The translations under genes were made by a program, and so were the position numbers. Shown here piece after piece: positions 9,448 through 28,591 of a DNA stretch of 64,000 bases (position 1 is the first letter of the stretch; every line of letters begins with the position of its first letter). The notes beneath the pieces were generated by a model that had not been told where the DNA came from, made no database searches, and was given only the letters and a program-made list of their open reading frames with translations. The stretch is from positions 1,984,001-2,048,000 of the forward strand of contig NZ_JARVRS010000001.1 of assembly GCF_030209575.1 (NCBI RefSeq). The letters are read 5' to 3'. Origin of the DNA: Leifsonia sp. fls2-241-R2A-40a (GTDB lineage Bacteria; Actinomycetota; Actinomycetes; Actinomycetales; Microbacteriaceae).

Positions 9448-10740
9448 CTACCGGCGGGCTGACGCGAGGAGGGCCTCCGTGTGTTCGACGACTTCACGGG
9501 GTCCGTCATGCTGGCGGAGCGCCTCGCCGATGCGTTCGGCGCCCGTCCGGTAGGCGTCCCCGCCGGAGACCCGCCGCCACGCGCGCAGGATCGCACGCGG
9601 AGACGGTGTTCCCGTGCGGAGATTGATCCCGGCGCCGGCCCAGGTGACGCGGGCTGCGACTTCCGGCTTGTCCAGGTCTCCGCCCGCGACCACCAGAGGG
9701 ACGCCGTGGTGCAGCGCTGCCAGCACGCCGCCCCACCCGCCGTTGGTCACCATCACGTCGACGCGGGGCAGCAGCCGATCGTACGGGAGCAGGTCTGCGA
9801 CGCGGGCGTTCGGCGGCGCAGGGAACGGCAACTCGCTGTTCCCGCGCACTCCGGTCGCGACGGCAAGCTGTACCCATTGACGTCCGAGCGCTGCGAATGT
9901 CGGCCGGATGAGGTCGGCAGGATCCACATTCTGGGTGCCCTGCGTCACGTGCACCACCGGACGCGGGTCCGCGAGCGATTCCGGCCACCACGCGGGCTCC
10001 GGGATGCCGCTCCCGGCATGGTCTGCGAGTTCGCCGACCCAGACGATCCGCCCCGGCCACTGAGGCCGGGGGTACTCCAGTTGCTCGACGCCGCTGGCGC
10101 ACACCAGATCGCGCGAGTACAGCGCCTCCTGGAAGGTGAGTGCCGTCGGTGGAAGGCCGGCGAGCGCGCGTTGCTCGTGGAACGCACGCTGAATCGGGCG
10201 GGATGCGGCCGAGAGCGCCGCCCAGAGTGCGCGGTCTCGCAGGCGGCCGAGCACCGACGTCGCCGGTTGCAGGCCCAGGCCGGGCGGCGGAGCACCCGGG
10301 GAGGGCGTCGCGAGGGGGACGAGCGCGACCGTGACCCGCGGAGTGCCGGTCCGTTCGGCGGCCAGATGCGCGCCGAGGGAGAGACCGTCGGCGACGAGGA
10401 CATCCCAAGGCCGCCTGTCGAAGGACGCCGTCAGGTCGGCGCACTGCGCGGCTCCCGTCCGGACGAACAGGTCCTCGACGTTCACGATCAGCTGGCGGGG
10501 CCCCTTCCGGCCGCGCAGCCGCGGGAACGTCGGGGACAGGTCGTTCTCGTCGAAGTCCGGCGCCCTCATCCACAGCACCGGTTCCGCCCCGTCGGCGCGG
10601 AAGGCGTCGGCGTGGGCCGACCCTGTGTACACGCGCACCCGGTGCCCGGCCGCAGAAAAGGCGCGTGCTACCGCCCGCATCGGCGCGACGTGGCCGGAGA
10701 ACGGCATGACCGCGAGCATCACCTCTGCCATGGCAGCCAT
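9448..10740 (-). CDS. UGT/MGT-type glycosyltransferase
   Basis: 430-residue GT-B glycosyltransferase of the family that includes macrolide and zeaxanthin glycosyltransferases (GT1). The N-terminal acceptor domain starts with AVMPFSGHVAPMRAVARAF. The C-terminal donor domain carries VTNGGWGGVLAALHHGVPLVVAGGDLDKPEVAARV, the family's donor-sugar signature. It would transfer an NDP-sugar to a small hydrophobic acceptor. The start is ATG at 10740 or 10731. It follows the flavin operon after a 102-base gap on the same strand, so it may be read through from it, but nothing ties it to flavin chemistry. Confidence 0.85.
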   Translation of the reverse strand: MAAMAEVMLAVMPFSGHVAPMRAVARAFSAAGHRVRVYTGSAHADAFRADGAEPVLWMRAPDFDENDLSPTFPRLRGRKGPRQLIVNVEDLFVRTGAAQCADLTASFDRRPWDVLVADGLSLGAHLAAERTGTPRVTVALVPLATPSPGAPPPGLGLQPATSVLGRLRDRALWAALSAASRPIQRAFHEQRALAGLPPTALTFQEALYSRDLVCASGVEQLEYPRPQWPGRIVWVGELADHAGSGIPEPAWWPESLADPRPVVHVTQGTQNVDPADLIRPTFAALGRQWVQLAVATGVRGNSELPFPAPPNARVADLLPYDRLLPRVDVMVTNGGWGGVLAALHHGVPLVVAGGDLDKPEVAARVTWAGAGINLRTGTPSPRAILRAWRRVSGGDAYRTGAERIGEALRQHDGPREVVEHTEALLASARR

Positions 10741-10842
10741 GGTGAGGCATTCGGGCCGGACGGCGCTAGAGCGGTGGTGCGCTCAACCGTCGACAGACTC
10801 CAGCGAGACCGCGCGCTGATCAACCGTGATGCTCCTGGCCCA

Positions 10843-20191: not shown

Positions 20192-20270
20192 GTCGTCAGG
20201 GTAGGCAGTCGGGATTTCCGTCAGGTTTCGTCGCGACGAGCGAAGCCTGACACGGGGACGATGTCGGTCC

Positions 20271-21149
20271 ATGATGGACGTGATGGCAGATCGCATCTCT
20301 CCGCAGAGGATCCTCGAGCACGTCCAACGGCTCGGGGAGCAGCATCCGCCGATCGCTCTCGACTCTGTCGACCGTGACGTCCGCGCACCGGCGGCCGTCG
20401 CCGATCGCTACGGCCACGTCATCGACTACCTCGCGCGGGTGGAGCTCGAAGTCGACCGGAACGTGCTCGAGCTGCTCGTCCTGCTGCCGGACGTGCACGA
20501 AGTCGACCGCATGTTCTACGCCGACGTGTGGCAGCCGCAGGAGATCCAGCACGGACTGATCCTCGACCGTCTGCAGCAGGATCTCGGCCGTCCCGCGGCC
20601 CAACCGGAGCTCGCCGTCTCGTTCAAGATCAAGATCATGGGCGCCCTCGCTCACTTCTCTTCGATCCAGGACATCGCGCGGCTGCTCTACTACCTGACCG
20701 GCGCGAGTACCGAACGGCAGGCGGTGCTGGCGTACAACGTCCTCTACGACGGGATGCTGGACCTCGGCGAGCCCGCGATCGCCGAGACGATCATCAGCCC
20801 GATCCGCAGGCAGGAGCCGGGCCACTTCGCGTTCTACCGGATGAGCGCGACGCAACTGGTGCAGAGCGGCGAGCTCAAGCCGTGGCAGCTCTACCTCGCG
20901 CGCATCCTGAGGGAGAAGACGTACAACCTCGTCGGCACGAACGGCCAAGACCGCTACCGCGCCCAGATGGGTGGCGTCGCGAGCGTGCTCGGGTTCGCCG
21001 ACGACCTCGAGAAGTACGCGCGCGAGGTCGGCCGGATCGAGGCGCAGCTGCTCTGGGCGCAGCACAGCGGCATGGAGTTCCCGCCCTACGTGCTCAAAGC
21101 GCTCAAGGAGAGCGTCGACCTCTACCGGGAACGCGGGTTCAACGCCTGA
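20271..21149 (+). CDS. Ferritin-like (acyl-ACP desaturase-like) diiron protein
   Basis: 292-residue (289 if the ATG at 20283 is used) all-helical protein. It shows the spacing of a four-helix diiron site: Glu in RVELEVDRNVLE, EIQH in the second helix (WQPQEIQHGL), Glu in EPAIAETI and EPGHF in the fourth (RRQEPGHFAFY). This resembles acyl-ACP desaturase/ferritin-like proteins of actinobacteria, some of which carry misleading GTPase names in databases. It may be a desaturase or an orphan oxidase; there is no genetic partner here. Divergent from the small unknown gene. Confidence 0.7.
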   Translation: MMDVMADRISPQRILEHVQRLGEQHPPIALDSVDRDVRAPAAVADRYGHVIDYLARVELEVDRNVLELLVLLPDVHEVDRMFYADVWQPQEIQHGLILDRLQQDLGRPAAQPELAVSFKIKIMGALAHFSSIQDIARLLYYLTGASTERQAVLAYNVLYDGMLDLGEPAIAETIISPIRRQEPGHFAFYRMSATQLVQSGELKPWQLYLARILREKTYNLVGTNGQDRYRAQMGGVASVLGFADDLEKYAREVGRIEAQLLWAQHSGMEFPPYVLKALKESVDLYRERGFNA

Positions 21150-21252
21150 AGCCGGCTCGTCGGGCTCGCGCGGTGCTCAGCGCACATGTGGCCGAATCGT
21201 CGCCTCTCACGGGCCCTCTCCGAGGGAGGGGCCGCGAGCTAGGGTGAGGAGC

Positions 21253-22185
21253 ATGAGCACGCGGACTCGGGACATGGTGCTGCTTGACGGTGGCGCATTT
21301 CTGATGGGGTCGGACGAGTTCTACCCGGACGAACGACCTGTGCACGAGCGTGAAGTCGGTTCGTTCTGGATGGATCGCTACGAGGTCACCAACGAGCAGT
21401 ATGCCGAGTTCGTCGATTCAACCGGCTACGTGACCGTTGCCGAGCGTGAGCTCGACCCGGCCGCGTTTCCCGGCGCTGATCCGGCCGTTCTCGTCCCTGG
21501 TGCGATGGTGTTCACCCCGTCGGCCGGTCCGGTCGATCTGAATGAATGGCGCAACTGGTGGGCGTGGACGCCGGGCGCTTTCTGGCGCGCGCCGTTCGGG
21601 CCGGGCTCGTCTGTCGCTGACAGGATGCAGCATCCGGTGGTGCATATCGCGTTCGAGGACGCCCTGGCGTACGCAGCCTGGGCGGGGCTGCGGCTACCCA
21701 CCGAGGCCGAGCACGAGTATGCGGCGCGCGGGGGGCTGGAGGGCGCGCGATTCGCATGGGGCGAGGAGATCTATCCCGGCGGCGAAGCGCAGGCCAATTC
21801 CTGGCTGGGACGTTTTCCGTATGACAATCAGGGTGTCGGGGGGACCGCACCGGTGGGCTCGTATCCTGCGAACGGTTACGGCCTCTTCGACATGGTCGGC
21901 AACGTCTGGGAGTGGACGACCGATTACTACACGCCGCGGCATCTGCGCCTGTCTGACAAGCCGGTGGACGCCGGCAAGCGCCAGAACCTTCTCGCGACTG
22001 CGAGTGCACAGCCGGAGTTCCCTGAGATCCCTCGGCGCGTGCTCAAGGGCGGCTCGCATCTGTGCTCTCCCGACTACTGCCTCCGTTTCCGGCCGGCGGC
22101 TCGCTCGCCGCAGGCGGAGGACACGGGGATGTCGCATATCGGGTTCCGGTGCGCGCGCGACGCTGAGACTTCCGGCGACTCCTAA
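21253..22185 (+). CDS. Formylglycine-generating enzyme (sulfatase-modifying factor)
   Basis: 310-residue FGE-sulfatase-fold protein. The copper-binding active-site pair is intact in GGSHLCSPDYCLRFRPAAR (Cys about 271 and 276), which separates true FGEs from EgtB- or SUMF2-like relatives. Other landmarks are MVLLDGGAFLMGSDEFYPDE, DRYEVTNEQYAEF, RLPTEAEHEYAARGG and GNVWEWTTDYY. It oxidises Cys in a CxPxR motif of type I sulfatases to formylglycine in the cytoplasm. No sulfatase gene is in the window. The ATG at 21253 has AGGGTGAGGA upstream. Confidence 0.92.
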   Translation: MSTRTRDMVLLDGGAFLMGSDEFYPDERPVHEREVGSFWMDRYEVTNEQYAEFVDSTGYVTVAERELDPAAFPGADPAVLVPGAMVFTPSAGPVDLNEWRNWWAWTPGAFWRAPFGPGSSVADRMQHPVVHIAFEDALAYAAWAGLRLPTEAEHEYAARGGLEGARFAWGEEIYPGGEAQANSWLGRFPYDNQGVGGTAPVGSYPANGYGLFDMVGNVWEWTTDYYTPRHLRLSDKPVDAGKRQNLLATASAQPEFPEIPRRVLKGGSHLCSPDYCLRFRPAARSPQAEDTGMSHIGFRCARDAETSGDS

Positions 22186-22188
22186 GAC

Positions 22189-22467
22189 TCATGCAGATGG
22201 AGCCGCCGGAAAGACCTCGGACCAGTCTCCACGTCCGGTGTCGTCATCGTGGTGGATCAGCAGTGCAAGACCCGTGCCTCCGCGACGGGGGAAGTCCAGC
22301 ATCCGCACATCGCCATTGGCGTTGCCGCCGGCGATCAGCGGCCGGCGCCCGATGCGGCTCCAAATGCGCGCCGGCTTCGATCCGGCCACGCACGTGCTCA
22401 GCATCCACGTCGACGTCTGCACGGTGTCGAACCCCAGGATCACGTACACCGTCGCGGACGGAGCCAA
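22189..22467 (-). pseudogene. Truncated HAD-family hydrolase (C-terminal remnant)
   Basis: The minus strand encodes IGRRPLIAGGNANGDVRMLDF followed by LALLIHHDDD, which is the motif-IV region (GNxxGDxxML) and following strand of HAD phosphatases. Motifs I-III are missing. The fragment is open only to a TTG at 22467, right beside the tRNA terminator, and the stretch before IGRRPL does not look like HAD sequence. It ends 3 bases from the convergent FGE gene. Most likely a decayed remainder of a gene once next to the tRNA. Confidence 0.55.
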
Positions 22468-22471
22468 ACAA

Positions 22472-22506
22472 AAAACCCCCGGATTCCGCCTGGGACCGGG
22501 GGTTTT
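22472..22506 (-). terminator. Rho-independent terminator after tRNA-Phe
   Basis: Perfect 11-base inverted repeat (AAAACCCCCGG/CCGGGGGTTTT) with a 13-base loop, followed on the minus strand by further Ts. It lies 4 bases beyond the CCA end of the tRNA-Phe fragment, so it is the native terminator of that tRNA gene. Confidence 0.85.
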
Positions 22507-22509
22507 CTC

Positions 22510-22559
22510 TGGTGGCTCCGACCGGCGTCGATCCGGTGACCTTTCGATTTTCAGTCGAA
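22510..22559 (-). other. tRNA-Phe 3' fragment; probable element attachment site
   Basis: On the minus strand the segment reads a complete anticodon arm (TTCGA-CTGAAAA-TCGAA, anticodon GAA), variable loop, T-arm (ACCGG-ATCGACG-CCGGT) and 3' acceptor CGGAGCC-ACCA. The matching 5' acceptor GGCTCCG and the D-arm are absent: the sequence upstream is unrelated. This is what integration into the 3' part of a tRNA gene leaves at the distal end. An intact tRNA-Phe should lie to the right, at the element's other end; none is in the window. Confidence 0.8.
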
Positions 22560-22848
22560 GTCAGGGCGTGACACAGGCCCTCGTACAGTGACAGATCGTT
22601 GAGTTTCCGCGGAAGTGGATGCTCTGAGATCACGTGAGATCGCATTGGATCTCGGGCGTTTGTAGTCAATATGTAGTCACGCCGTAGGAGCAGCGTTTCT
22701 TCTGTGAACTTTCGAACGCAACGTTCAACCGTTCTTTGTAATAGGCCTCTGGCCGTATTGCTTCCTTTAGTTCGAACGGGTGAGGGCGTCGAGTCCGGCA
22801 AACCGGCGTCCGAAGCACGAGAGGATCCGCTGAGCTAGGGTGCACAGC

Positions 22849-23712
22849 GTGAGCGATGCGCGATTCCGGCCCTTCGGCTATAGCAACGAGCAGTACCAGC
22901 AGCTTCTCGTCTTACGCGACGGAGTACCTGATGAGCTCAAGGAGCCGCTCCTAGGGTGGATCTTCACCGCTCTAACCCTCCCGTTCGACTTCGCCGCTGG
23001 TCGATATATGGACGAGGAGCTCGCTCACCGGGTTCGGGCGTTGACTCGAATCGATCTCGGCCAGCCCGCACGAGTCACTGTTCACGGGGACGACGTCCAA
23101 CAACGGCTGCGCTCGCTAAGCGAGTTGGAGCTCCTACGTATTGCCGATGCGCTGGCGTACATCCAGTATCCATATAAGGGGCATCCGCCAGATATTGATT
23201 ACGCCTTCGAGCTGGCCTCGTCGAAGTGGGAATTTCAATACGACGAGGAAGCCGGCGCATGGCGGCTTGGCGAGCGCCTGCCCGAAGGGGTGCTTGACCA
23301 GATTTCGCAGACTATTGACCTCGCCGGTACGGCTGGACAACTGCTGCACCGTGCGTTCACTGCGGCTTATCAACTCAATCCGAATGCGGGCGAGGCCTAC
23401 AAGATGTCGGTGAAGGCTGTCGAGACGGCGGCGCATAAGACCATCGAACCCAACAACGCGGGCGCAACCCTTGGGACAATGTTGGGTGTGATGCGTCGTG
23501 CGCCGCGTCCGTGGACCATTCCTCTGGACGAGCGCGCAGACCACGCGGGAAACAACGCAACCTTCCTTGTGGACATGATGTCGGCGATCTGGGACGGCCA
23601 GGAGGACCGCCACCGCGATGGTCAGGTCGCACTCGATGAAGCCCGGTCGGCCTTCCATGCCGCGACGACAATCGTTGCTTGGTTTGCCGAGGGCCTCGTT
23701 CAGCAGCGTTAG
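22849..23712 (+). CDS. Hypothetical protein, Abi/HEPN-like C-terminal region
   Basis: 287-residue protein read from GTG 22849, with AGGGTG upstream. I do not recognise a named family. The C-terminal half (YKMSVKAVETAAHKTIEPNNAGATLGTMLG... GQEDRHRDGQVALDEARSAFHAATTIVAWF) has the helical pattern seen at the end of abortive-infection-like proteins, but motif support is weak. It is the first gene inside the tRNA junction. Confidence 0.6.
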   Translation: MSDARFRPFGYSNEQYQQLLVLRDGVPDELKEPLLGWIFTALTLPFDFAAGRYMDEELAHRVRALTRIDLGQPARVTVHGDDVQQRLRSLSELELLRIADALAYIQYPYKGHPPDIDYAFELASSKWEFQYDEEAGAWRLGERLPEGVLDQISQTIDLAGTAGQLLHRAFTAAYQLNPNAGEAYKMSVKAVETAAHKTIEPNNAGATLGTMLGVMRRAPRPWTIPLDERADHAGNNATFLVDMMSAIWDGQEDRHRDGQVALDEARSAFHAATTIVAWFAEGLVQQR

Positions 23713-24202: not shown

Positions 24203-26935
24203 TCAGAAGCGATGCGAGGGCGACGGCGCTTCGGCCGGGGACGAGACTCGTGTCGGGTCGCTACGGGATGCTCGGGCGAGTTCGCGGCGGGCGGCGATCC
24301 GGGACTTCTCGAGCGTCTCTTCTCGGGGCTGACGCTGCATAGTGTCGGCCAGCTCGCTGATTGCGGTGCTGGTGGTTCCTGCGATGACGATGGCTTCGTT
24401 TCGTCCTCGTCCGCGGGTGAGTCCGACGTAGAGGCCTGCCGCATCGACGCCAGGGCCGACGATGGATCGTTCGGTGGTTTCGCCTTGGACGCCGTAGACG
24501 GTGCTGGCGTATCCGAGATGCAGGTGGGAGCCGGCGTACTCGTGGGTGATCTTCCTCAGGTGGGACGAGTCGCTAACGCTGGCGAGGAGGACGTGATCTT
24601 TAGTGATGGCCCTGATGATCCAGGTTTGACGGTTCTCCACTCCGGAGATTCTGTCGTTGCGTCGAGTCTGAACGACGTCGCCCACGAAGCACGGCTGATT
24701 CGCCTGACCGAGCACTTGACGGTCGGTGGTGAGGGCGCCGGACGCGACGCGGTGTGTCTGGATGCTGTCGTTGATCTGCTGGGCTTCGGCGTGCGTGGCG
24801 GTGACGAGTGCAATCGTCTGGCCGCGAAGGGTGGCATCAAACCATCCGTCAACCATGATCTGCCGGGCGTCGCCCTCGGCGGTGACGGAAGCGACGTGCC
24901 CCTTGTCGATCAGCTCCTCTGCGAGCCGCTGTGCTTCTTCAGCGCCGTCGGCGTCGCGGAGTCGCAACGTGAGATCAGCCCAATCGGGATCATGAAATCG
25001 GTGGATGTTCGTCAGTTCGACTTCAACGAACGCTGCGGATCGGAACAGGGCCATCGCGCCGGAGTGTCCGACGGGGAGGGCTTGGTAGTCGTCGCCAACG
25101 ACCGCGATAGTTGCTCGCGTGCGTTCGATGACGTCCAGAAGAGCGTTTGCGGCTTCGAGATCGAGCATGCCGGCCTCATCGACCACGATCCGGTCACCCG
25201 GTCGGATCGCGATTCGAGGGCCTCGATACTCCGCTCCGGTCGTTGGGTCGACAGCTCCGGGGAGCAGTCGCGTCCACACTGTGCTGCCAGAGGTGCTCTC
25301 TGTCCACCGCCATCCGTAGTCATGGAGGAGCTGGTGGAGGGAGGAAGCGGCGCTGTTGGTTTCCCTCCCGGCGACTGTCGAGGCCCTCTTGGTCGGAGCG
25401 ACGATGACCATGTTGTGTCCGTGCCGGCGAAGCGCGGCTCCGGCGACCTTGAGCATGGTGGTCTTACCCGTTCCTGCGGCGCCGGTGACGGAGACGATCG
25501 AGGCTGTGCCGGCAAGTGCGGCAGCACCATCGCTCTGGTCACCATCGAGGACGCGCTCCGGGTCGAGCGCGTGAGCGATCGCCGTGATCTCGCGGGCTGA
25601 GACGGCATCTCCGGGTGCTGCCATCGCGTCGATCCGGTTCGCGAGAGTGGTCTTCACGACAACCGTTGCGATGGACATCCGATGCTTGACGTGCTTCGGC
25701 ATATCAGGCTCGTTCAGCAACGTCACCGTGTAGGTGCGAGTAGCAGCCTCTGAGACCGCGTCAATAGTTGCCGCAAGCTCACTGCGCTCGCCCAGAACCC
25801 CAGAGGCCGCGATCGCGCGAATGGCGCCGGCCCGGATGTCCATGTCGCTGAATCGGCCGCCCGTGCCTGTTGACCGTGTATCCGCATCAACGACTGCTCT
25901 GGCCGCCAGAAGCTCCAGATCCAGGTCGTCAATCGAGACTGCAGCCAGACGAGCGGGGGAACGGGTTTCACTGATCGTCGGGTCCGCCGACCTCATCTCT
26001 TGGCGGATGAGCTCGGTCCAGTCGTCTTCGTCCAGGTTGCCAGGTTTGTTCGGTCGGCCGGCGGCCCAGGCCCATCGGTCGATCTGATTCAGCACATCAC
26101 GGGAGGGTTCCTGCCCGCAGTGCTGTTGCTTCCACCAGACCGTGCGGATGGTCTTGTTGGCTTCGATCTGCGCGGACCGCTTCGACAGCGGCCGCACCAG
26201 GTGCTGCAGCTGGGTGATCTCCCCCTCGGCGTTGAGGGTGAACCCTTTCGCGGCGAGGGCGGTGATCCAGGTGGGGTCGGTGCGGGAGGCGAGGTCGCCT
26301 TCGGCGTTGATCACGTTCTGGAACCGCAACGCGACCCGGGTGTCGATGTTGGACCATTTGCGGTCTTGCCCTTGGACTTTGACGTTGAGCCAGAGGTGGC
26401 GGTGCTTGTGTGGATCCAGGGAGCGGGAGCGTTCGTGGCGGAGTTCGACGATCTCGATGCGGGCGAGGTCTTCGCGGACGCTGCCACCTTGGCCGCGGCG
26501 GGCGTTGAGCTCGGACTGCCACAGTTTCACTATCCGGTCGCGGAGCCGGTCTTGCAGGTCCTCGTACGCGGCGGCGAGGTCGGGGTCGAGCATGGTGGCG
26601 ATCGAGAACGACTTCGGGGCGTTGATCGTCGCATCCAAGATCAAGTCCGCGACGGGGGACTCCAGGTCGCGTCCGCGACGTTCCCCGGTCAGCGGGTCGA
26701 GTCCGTCCACCCAGTCCTTGAGCTGGTCTCCGGTGAGCAGGTCGTCGCGGACGGCACCATTCTCGACGATGTAGCGGGTCATCAGAGCGCCGGCGTAGCC
26801 GGCGGCGGCAATGACACCGTCAGCCGTTTTAGCGGTGAGGGTGGCGTCACAGACGCCGGAGAAGGCGTACTGGACTGCTTGCTTGACCCCGTGGGACTGC
26901 TGTCCCCGCTTCCACCGGGCTACTCCACCGCGCAC
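24203..26935 (-). CDS. MobF-type conjugative relaxase with C-terminal helicase
   Basis: 910-residue TraA/TrwC-type protein. The relaxase part (1-~340) holds the metal-binding histidine cluster PHKHRHLWLNV. The helicase part shows Walker A GAAGTGKTTM, Walker B RIVVDEAGML, the GDDYQALPVG motif and the C-terminal motif YVGLTRGRGRN, so the superfamily 1 helicase is complete. It would nick oriT and unwind the transferred strand. The GTG at 26935 is preferred to the one at 26941, because AGGGAGGTGA sits at proper spacing only for 26935. The very N-terminus is not the usual MobF start, and the nicking tyrosines cannot be assigned with certainty. No mating-pair genes are present. Confidence 0.85.
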   Translation of the reverse strand: MRGGVARWKRGQQSHGVKQAVQYAFSGVCDATLTAKTADGVIAAAGYAGALMTRYIVENGAVRDDLLTGDQLKDWVDGLDPLTGERRGRDLESPVADLILDATINAPKSFSIATMLDPDLAAAYEDLQDRLRDRIVKLWQSELNARRGQGGSVREDLARIEIVELRHERSRSLDPHKHRHLWLNVKVQGQDRKWSNIDTRVALRFQNVINAEGDLASRTDPTWITALAAKGFTLNAEGEITQLQHLVRPLSKRSAQIEANKTIRTVWWKQQHCGQEPSRDVLNQIDRWAWAAGRPNKPGNLDEDDWTELIRQEMRSADPTISETRSPARLAAVSIDDLDLELLAARAVVDADTRSTGTGGRFSDMDIRAGAIRAIAASGVLGERSELAATIDAVSEAATRTYTVTLLNEPDMPKHVKHRMSIATVVVKTTLANRIDAMAAPGDAVSAREITAIAHALDPERVLDGDQSDGAAALAGTASIVSVTGAAGTGKTTMLKVAGAALRRHGHNMVIVAPTKRASTVAGRETNSAASSLHQLLHDYGWRWTESTSGSTVWTRLLPGAVDPTTGAEYRGPRIAIRPGDRIVVDEAGMLDLEAANALLDVIERTRATIAVVGDDYQALPVGHSGAMALFRSAAFVEVELTNIHRFHDPDWADLTLRLRDADGAEEAQRLAEELIDKGHVASVTAEGDARQIMVDGWFDATLRGQTIALVTATHAEAQQINDSIQTHRVASGALTTDRQVLGQANQPCFVGDVVQTRRNDRISGVENRQTWIIRAITKDHVLLASVSDSSHLRKITHEYAGSHLHLGYASTVYGVQGETTERSIVGPGVDAAGLYVGLTRGRGRNEAIVIAGTTSTAISELADTMQRQPREETLEKSRIAARRELARASRSDPTRVSSPAEAPSPSHRF

Positions 26936-26960
26936 CCGCACTCACCTCCCTCACACGTCG

Positions 26961-27236: not shown

Positions 27237-27488
27237 CTACCGGATGCCGCCGAGCCGCTTCAGATTGACGAAGGGCACGCAAGCGGTCTCCGCGGTGAGC
27301 GCTGCAAGCCAACCGATGGGCGAGTGCGGGTCGGCGGCGATCGCCCACCCCTCCATGACGTGCTGGCCGACGGTCTCCACGCATTCCATCTTCTCCGCGG
27401 CAGTCGGGGTCCAGGGTCCTTCCACCCTTAGGAGTCCGCCTTGCAGTTTTGGAGCCATTTCTCCGGTGTCGATGATGAATACCCGCAT
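27237..27488 (-). CDS. Small hypothetical protein of the mobile element
   Basis: 83-residue protein from ATG 27488 (MRVFIIDTGEMAPKLQGG), with GGAGTGAG about 10 bases upstream. It has no recognised family, membrane segment or signal. The 229 bases between it and the next minus-strand gene show no further convincing gene. Confidence 0.45.
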   Translation of the reverse strand: MRVFIIDTGEMAPKLQGGLLRVEGPWTPTAAEKMECVETVGQHVMEGWAIAADPHSPIGWLAALTAETACVPFVNLKRLGGIR

Positions 27489-27717
27489 CTCGCTCACTCC
27501 GCAGGTCGATCGCTTTTGAGTGCCTTTCCGGCGAGTGATAGAAAGCGAGAGGGGCGCAGTGCCGGGACCGTGGAGTACCGGACTGGAGCGAAGCGGAGGG
27601 AGGATACGCCGCGAAAGCCCGGCACGTAGCACCGGGAGGGGAGCTACGATCGGGCGACGGAAAGGCCCTCAAGATCCGCGCCAAGTGCTGCGGAGTTTGT
27701 CGTTCAGAGGGCGTGGC

Positions 27718-28125
27718 CTAAAGCGGCGGACGTACCCTATACGCGAGGTTTACTTCTTGGTCGTAGTAGCCATTGCGGTGGTATGGAGCGTCTGAGACAA
27801 GTCGAATCTGCGCGAACGTGCCCTCGGCAACGTCGTCGACTGTCACGTTCCACGTCAGTTGGGAGATCTCTCCAGACCTTCCGTCGGCCGTGATTGCGCC
27901 ACGTGTCGCGCTGCGACCCTCGAGTCGCCAGATCAGAGGACGATCCTCGGGATCCCATCCCAGGCATTCAAACGTCACGACATCACCCGGATGGAGAATC
28001 GAGTCGACCCTCACCAGCGACTGTTGTGCCCCTGCATCGAGTCCGGGGCGATTCTGGTTTCCGAAGCTGTCAACGACTGACTCGATTCGGGGGTAGATCT
28101 CTCCCGCACTAGCTTCACGACTCAT
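27718..28125 (-). CDS. Beta-rich hypothetical protein paired with HEPN gene
   Basis: 135-residue soluble protein. The middle and end (HPGDVVTFECLGWDPEDRPLIWRLEG, ISQLTWNVTVDDVAEGTFAQIRLVSD) look like an Ig-like or jelly-roll beta sandwich with alternating hydrophobic residues. No named family is recognised. Its ATG lies inside the last codons of the upstream HEPN gene (11-base overlap), so the two are co-translated and likely partners. Confidence 0.6.
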   Translation of the reverse strand: MSREASAGEIYPRIESVVDSFGNQNRPGLDAGAQQSLVRVDSILHPGDVVTFECLGWDPEDRPLIWRLEGRSATRGAITADGRSGEISQLTWNVTVDDVAEGTFAQIRLVSDAPYHRNGYYDQEVNLAYRVRPPL

Positions 28126-28591
28126 GTAGAAGCGTCACCCGATTTCTTATCTCGCCCGCGATTCCAGAGAGCAGATCGCGCTCAAAAGGGACTAGCGGAC
28201 GGCTGTGAGCGACGTCGTTTCGAAGAGCATCGAATCGTCGTAGTAGGGGAAGCGTGCTCGCGCGGTCGCCCAACGCTGCAGCCACAGGCTCCCAGTTCTG
28301 TTCGACAATGTTGATCAGCTCGTAGCACTCGCACCAGGCCAAGCCTGGCCGCTCAATATCCGCCACGCCCCGGCGGGTCCGGGTTCGGCTTGCATCGCGG
28401 CGCTGATCCCACTTCGCCCGCTGTTGCTCTGTTGACACCCGGTCGAGCCACCCGTCGCCCCAGGCTTGCTTGTACGCGTGCAACATCAGCTCGCGGAGCG
28501 CCGACTCAAACGAGCTAAGGGCAGCCGACGGTTCGAGCAAAGGCACGTGTGGAAGTATGCAGGGAGACCAGGCCCTGGGGGAAGCCGTCAC
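28115..28591 (-). CDS. HEPN-domain protein (Swt1-like)
   Basis: Up to 158 residues; a GTG at 28546 giving 143 residues (MPLLEPSAALSSFESALRELM) is an equally good start. It is all helical with the HEPN Rx4H motif as FDALRNDVAHSR near the end. The preceding segment, with FESALRELMLHAYKQAWGDGWLDRV and a Trp-rich middle, recalls the Swt1-type HEPN group. HEPN proteins with this motif are usually RNases or toxin components. Overlaps the beta-rich gene downstream by 11 bases. Confidence 0.65.
   Translation of the reverse strand: MTASPRAWSPCILPHVPLLEPSAALSSFESALRELMLHAYKQAWGDGWLDRVSTEQQRAKWDQRRDASRTRTRRGVADIERPGLAWCECYELINIVEQNWEPVAAALGDRASTLPLLRRFDALRNDVAHSRPLVPFERDLLSGIAGEIRNRVTLLHES

Follow-up and report, generated by a model that had tools for sequence, protein, structure and literature searches.

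A 54,698-bp tyrosine-integrase element in tRNA-Phe of a Leifsonia strain, putatively mobilizable and with predicted sugar and inositol catabolic cargo

Insertion into a tRNA gene, which leaves half of the tRNA behind, is a well-known way in which mobile DNA settles. The element pMEA100 integrates in tRNA-Phe, and a MobF relaxase and ArdC are common companions of conjugation.

The island described here was analyzed from a 64,000-bp stretch of the genome of Leifsonia sp. fls2-241-R2A-40a (the window, C1:1984001-2048000; genome of 3.75 Mb in 4 contigs). Like IMEs, it combines an integrase and a relaxase with attachment repeats in a tRNA gene, and no transfer channel of its own was found; unlike them, it carries a large catabolic cargo, and its mobilization is predicted from its genes. 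A tyrosine integrase and a tRNA target in Actinomycetota are shared with AICEs (PMC3218068) such as pSAM2 and pMEA100, but neither an FtsK/TraB translocase nor RepSA, RepAM or prim-pol was found in the element. The E. coli pheV island, an enterobacterial genomic island in tRNA-Phe that is treated in PMC11537424, likewise points to tRNA-Phe as a recurrent integration hotspot, but the hosts are unrelated and the cargo here is catabolic. The kind of element is well known; size, cargo and leader modules are its particular features, and no prior report of this island was found in the literature listings that were searched. The reading that we favor, at roughly 95%, is a 54,698-bp tyrosine-integrase element integrated into tRNA-Phe, putatively excisable and mobilizable via MobF, with a predicted sugar and inositol cargo.

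The half tRNA-Phe, the intact gene and the flanks

On the minus strand, positions 22559-22510 were read directly as the anticodon arm TTCGA-CTGAAAA-TCGAA (anticodon GAA) and variable loop, followed by the T arm ACCGG-ATCGACG-CCGGT and the acceptor strand CGGAGCC-A-CCA, which ends at 22510. A CCCCCGG...CCGGGGG-T(6) stem lies 3' of this half tRNA and extends to about 22472; this minus-strand terminator was also read directly. The terminator scan reported only a weak plus-strand form here, because the loop on the minus strand is longer than the 8 nt that it allows. The DNA on the island side is non-tRNA sequence, with 62.7% GC in the element backbone against about 70% in both flanks, and ARAGORN found no intact tRNA in the 64-kb window. 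The initial annotation, which had described a 3' half of tRNA-Phe with its anticodon arm, T arm, CCA and terminator beside unrelated DNA of lower GC, was therefore confirmed in these points.

A search of the whole genome with positions 22450-22640 gave three matches, including the query itself. The second (C1:2061165-2061257, 93 bp, 90% identity, E 2e-30) belongs to an intact tRNA-Phe gene at C1:2061209-2061283, i.e. c[77209,77283] in extended coordinates, which continue the numbering of the window and are converted to C1 by adding 1984000. The genes for tRNA-Asp and tRNA-Glu adjoin it. The third match (C1:2092153, 77%) covered the terminator only and was dropped as a terminator look-alike.

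The 3' end of the tRNA is thus repeated in direct orientation at both boundaries of the element. The displaced 3' half (22510-22559, minus strand, anticodon arm to CCA) forms the distal attachment core, and the repeat runs on through the terminator of the pre-insertion tRNA-Phe (22467-22509, minus strand). The exact core repeat is 49 bp long (22511-22559 and 77209-77257), with a core-to-core distance of 54,698 bp. A repeat of 50 bases (22510-22559) had been expected from the window; its second copy was found in the intact tRNA-Phe, but the length was one base shorter, since CCA is encoded in the relic and only CC in the intact gene. The further expectations of an intact tRNA-Phe to the right, of a tyrosine recombinase next to it, and of an island over 40 kb that includes the sugar clusters were all borne out; these clusters lie between the two junctions. 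The T-loop base in ATCGACG is common to both core copies and was elsewhere in the genus seen only in genome G010; therefore the copies do not tell which of them came with the element.

For comparison, 28 genomes of the genus were used (G000 is the source genome), and the tRNA-Phe locus was found in all of them. In G011 and G013, which lack the insert, the tRNA-Phe terminator is directly followed by a homologue (94%) of the window gene at 20265-21157. This homologue stands after the distal half tRNA in G001, and the next match beyond it in G013 and G001 is window 9455-10798. What lies to the left of the island is therefore the native downstream side of tRNA-Phe. The comparison with genomes lacking the insert is one that the initial annotation had proposed.

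The flank has also been altered by other events. A 1.3-kb block (21158-22466) with an FGE/sulfatase-modifying-factor-like gene lies between the relic and the native neighbor gene; G011, G013 and G001 lack it at this place. A block of about 9.5 kb (window ~10.8-20.2 kb) is missing at the site in G013 and G001. It was also observed that G014 has a block homologous to the FGE block (83%) at another place, and that the 16.6-20.2 kb part of the larger block (an ABC importer of the nitrate/sulfonate type) is located elsewhere in six genus genomes. Since the FGE block separates the relic from the native gene, the terminator that had been called native is one that was present just before this insertion, but not necessarily the ancestral one.

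Integrase, relaxase and cargo

The tyrosine integrase (most plausibly 381 aa, extended 75988-77133 = C1:2059988-2061133) ends 75 bp from the intact tRNA-Phe. It carries the R, HxxR, H and Y motifs and scored 1.2e-21 against PF00589 and 1e-66 against a PHROG integrase. The octamer TGTAGTCA occurs at six sites in 114 kb, with one pair 11 bp apart and in the same orientation inside each element end, at 22661 and 22672 in the left attachment arm (22560-22690) and at C1:2061118 and 2061129 on the right. These pairs resemble integrase arm sites. The remaining two sites accompany a tRNA-Ser(CGA) at extended 104.2 kb (C1:2088116-2088290), where a terminator and the pair of octamers come after the tRNA gene. 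No integrase was found nearby, and the site may be a scar left by a related element that has been lost. No excisionase was identified in the element.

At the other end, a MobF/TrwC relaxase with a helicase domain (912 aa) is encoded at 24203-26941 on the minus strand. It matched TrwC PF08751 at 2.8e-28 in an alignment that begins at profile position 42, and reached 80 bits with the NCBIfam MobF model, below its 100-bit cut-off; the catalytic tyrosines of the relaxase were not located. Its best plasmid relative is from Microbacterium amylolyticum (56% identity over residues 1-532). The reading frames of both integrase and relaxase are full length. An ArdC-type protein (C1:2058350-2059213) is encoded beside the integrase operon. 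An ORF of 290 aa at 22840-23712 on the plus strand had no family match and may not be a gene. Two ORFs at 27718-28591 on the minus strand, one with a weak HEPN match (Swt1-like/PDC-M34B), share 95.6% DNA identity with a module in the tRNA-Phe region of G009; this may be a defence or toxin-antitoxin pair that was recently exchanged with G009.

The simple gene caller used here, which may miss small genes, predicted 44 genes between the junctions, and all were scanned with Pfam. VirB4, VirD4, FtsK/SpoIIIE and replication initiators were found in none of the 44, and neither were phage structural families; PHROGs was run on eight element proteins. At gathering thresholds, Rfam gave nothing beyond the three tRNAs. 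The reading as a T4SS-type ICE was dropped as no VirD4/VirB4-like proteins were found, that as an AICE as there was no FtsK/SpoIIIE-type translocase or replication initiator, and that as a prophage as structural genes were lacking. The presence of a MobF relaxase and ArdC without a detectable transfer channel or replication gene is the reason for filing the island as a putative IME.

The cargo occupies window positions 28984-64000 and continues outside the window to about C1:2058122. Sugar and inositol catabolism genes make up about 45 kb of it in total. Within the window, its families include MFS, LacI, Gfo/Idh/MocA, SMP-30, an enolase-type dehydratase, FAA hydrolase and aldehyde dehydrogenase, together with two ABC importers, GH42 and GH3. 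TIM-barrel isomerases/epimerases are also among the 44 genes. Judging by family names, the dehydrogenase, SMP-30 lactonase, enolase-type dehydratase, FAA hydrolase and aldehyde dehydrogenase may form an oxidative sugar pathway. Extended positions 66024-74122 encode PfkB, Cgl0159, an aldehyde dehydrogenase, KduI/IolB, a TPP enzyme and GntR, and represent a putative inositol-type cluster. Deglycosylation of C-glycosides was also considered as a function of the cargo and was unsupported; for one TIM-barrel protein, the closest relatives of solved structure are ketose 3-epimerases, and another has none.

Window genes 30495-54143 (23.6 kb) are collinear in G020, from C1:2906707 of that genome, with 77-98% protein identity. 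The G020 copy of the cluster sits more than 1 Mb from the tRNA-Phe of G020, so that a joint arrival of cargo and integrase in a single step is not required. In this cluster, three ABC importer proteins are 96-98% identical and their neighbors 77-91%. The sole cargo match in the tRNA-Phe regions of the 27 relatives was one of 79 bp in G007, in regions that were mostly 20 kb or less and in which larger islands are visible only in part.

In the proposed course of events, integrase-driven recombination would have taken place between the attachment site of the element and the 3' half of the only tRNA-Phe gene. An intact tRNA-Phe would have been rebuilt at the proximal end with the 3' half and terminator that the element itself supplied, and the original 3' half and terminator would have been displaced to the distal end (window 22467-22559). 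The element would, most likely, be excised as a circle through the same core, and would be transferred by means of its MobF relaxase through a conjugation channel borrowed from another element, bringing along the large sugar and inositol catabolic cargo.

The tRNA-Phe site in related genomes

A second core-like copy was found in seven of the 28 genomes (G000, G001, G004 with two, G014, G018 with a partial one, G023 and G025), a count in which the second cores of G023 and G025 are on separate contigs and which does not include the weak G009 match (71%). Integrase matches lie within 1 kb of tRNA-Phe in nine of the 28 genomes: they are near full length in G000, G014, G015 (with an internal stop in the frame) and G023, fragments in G001, G007, G008 and G009, and G027 has a distant match. 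The G014 integrase is 94% identical, and its distal core lies 11.4 kb away. About 120 bp of the left arm are kept at the distal half-tRNA copies in G014 (90% identity), G001 (84%), G023 (80%) and G004 (74%). The second cores and the nearby integrases show tRNA-Phe to be a reused integration site in the genus. The G025 assembly breaks exactly at the core, and a separate contig (C2, 42351 bp) starts with the core; integrated and excised copies of another tRNA-Phe element may be present together here, a hint of excision in a relative, or the assembly is simply broken at a repeat.

The integrase was also used to scan genome contigs, and the best 79 of 452 loci were evaluated for a tRNA within 400 bp of the integrase end. 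Among these 79, the 15 loci with at least 58% identity comprised 11 at tRNA-Phe, three at tRNA-Thr and one with none; the other 64 were at tRNA-Ser, Leu, Lys, Met, Ala or Asn, or had none found. All counted tRNAs were on the strand opposite to the integrase. This distribution indicates a tRNA-Phe clade within a larger tRNA-targeting family.

These data bear on the alternatives to a mobilizable element. An old rearrangement (duplication or inversion) in place of integration might have produced the half tRNA, and the further alterations of the left flank, i.e. the 1.3-kb FGE block and the 9.5-kb block missing in G013 and G001, would suit such a history. It is nevertheless extremely improbable, given the integrase, the arm sites and the empty sites, and it is contradicted by the element arm that ends exactly at the core in G014, G001, G004 and G023. 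The repeat, integrase, arm sites and empty sites together uphold the interpretation of the initial annotation, an integration junction at the distal end of a tRNA-targeting element. The MobF relaxase and ArdC would also suit a complete element (T4SS ICE or AICE) that transmits itself and whose transfer genes escaped detection, but this is very unlikely, as none of the transfer and replication families named above was found by Pfam in the 44 predicted genes.

A more serious competitor, to which we give somewhat less than even odds, disputes the mobility of the island and not its integration: an old element may have become immobile, with the sugar genes added by later insertions between its ends. 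The GC content of the cargo is host-like (69.3%) and that of the element ends is 62.7 and 63.3%, with flanks at about 70%; half of the cargo corresponds to the cluster located elsewhere in the G020 chromosome, and decayed relatives, seen as the integrase fragments in G001, G007, G008 and G009, occupy the same site. Against this stand the full-length integrase and relaxase, the identical cores and the two intact arms.

The palindromic leader pair

A stretch of about 400 bp at 27262-27664 recurs in inverted orientation at extended 75547-75952 (77% identity). Each consists of a palindromic leader of about 175 bp and a small ORF beginning MRVFxIDT. The left leader (27494-27664, minus strand) heads the relaxase operon and the right one (C1:2059536-2059710, plus strand) the integrase operon. 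The left small ORF (MRVFIIDT..., approximately 27237-27490, minus strand) is a paralogue of the ORF before the integrase gene. The latter was at first viewed as a chance antisense frame, but its repeated conservation at the protein level, with 30 matches spread over 11 of the 299 family genomes, speaks more for a real small gene. Pfam, NCBIfam, PHROGs and PADLOC gave no match for it, nor did tblastn in plasmids.

The leader was detected in 23 of the 28 genus genomes. In a sample of 16 copies (two in the element and 14 others, including one in G021), the next gene was a tyrosine recombinase in six, a MobF relaxase in four and an oppositely directed gene in six. One copy in the source genome (G000:C1:1690171-1691548) is interrupted at position 80 of the 206-bp query by an insertion, which we take to be of the IS110 type, and breaks at the same position were found in several other genus genomes; IS110 elements may insert into the leader by preference.

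The central core of the leader (about 55 bp) was present in 249 of 72,556 plasmid records (Burkholderia 106, Pseudomonas 65), 185 of them typed as conjugative, and in six of 5,426 E. coli genomes, on plasmids every time; no copy was found in phage records. A text search for the letters of the core returned nothing. It is thus conserved on plasmids across Actinomycetota and Pseudomonadota, and the blocks GCTTTCGCGGCATAT and TATTCCACG show no variation in an alignment of 11 sequences from two phyla. Five of ten plasmid regions viewed had SSB, DUF932, a DNA methyltransferase or ArdC near the core. Among the five without these, a tyrosine recombinase on a Microbacterium plasmid and a MobV relaxase on an E. 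coli plasmid lie shortly downstream, and three had neither.

Frpo/ssi sequences are single-strand promoters of plasmid leading regions, according to PMC11541004. The leader resembles them, as they are described there, in being palindromic and intergenic, in preceding genes such as ssb and DUF932 on some plasmids and in often having several copies per plasmid; it differs in heading integrase and relaxase operons here, and the likeness considered is one of setting. The leader is a candidate single-strand promoter or primer site. A wider proposal, which we consider rather unlikely, is that it is a member of a family, spread across phyla, of promoters or primer sites activated by single-stranded DNA, so that an incoming single-stranded island would switch on its own integrase (and relaxase), with zygotic integration as in plasmid leading regions. 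Several results speak against a single-strand promoter: the DNA fold z was modest and mixed (-1.35 for the copy studied here, +0.78 to -3.11 over 11 sequences), only three of 14 consensus pairs had two-sided changes (covariation term only -0.31), and half of the plasmid contexts were without the expected neighbors.

The borders of a 54.7-kb catabolic island are now fixed. The island suggests one way for large sugar-use gene sets to enter and leave these genomes. The leader pair is more unusual than the island itself, and offers a testable route to how such elements may time their integration.
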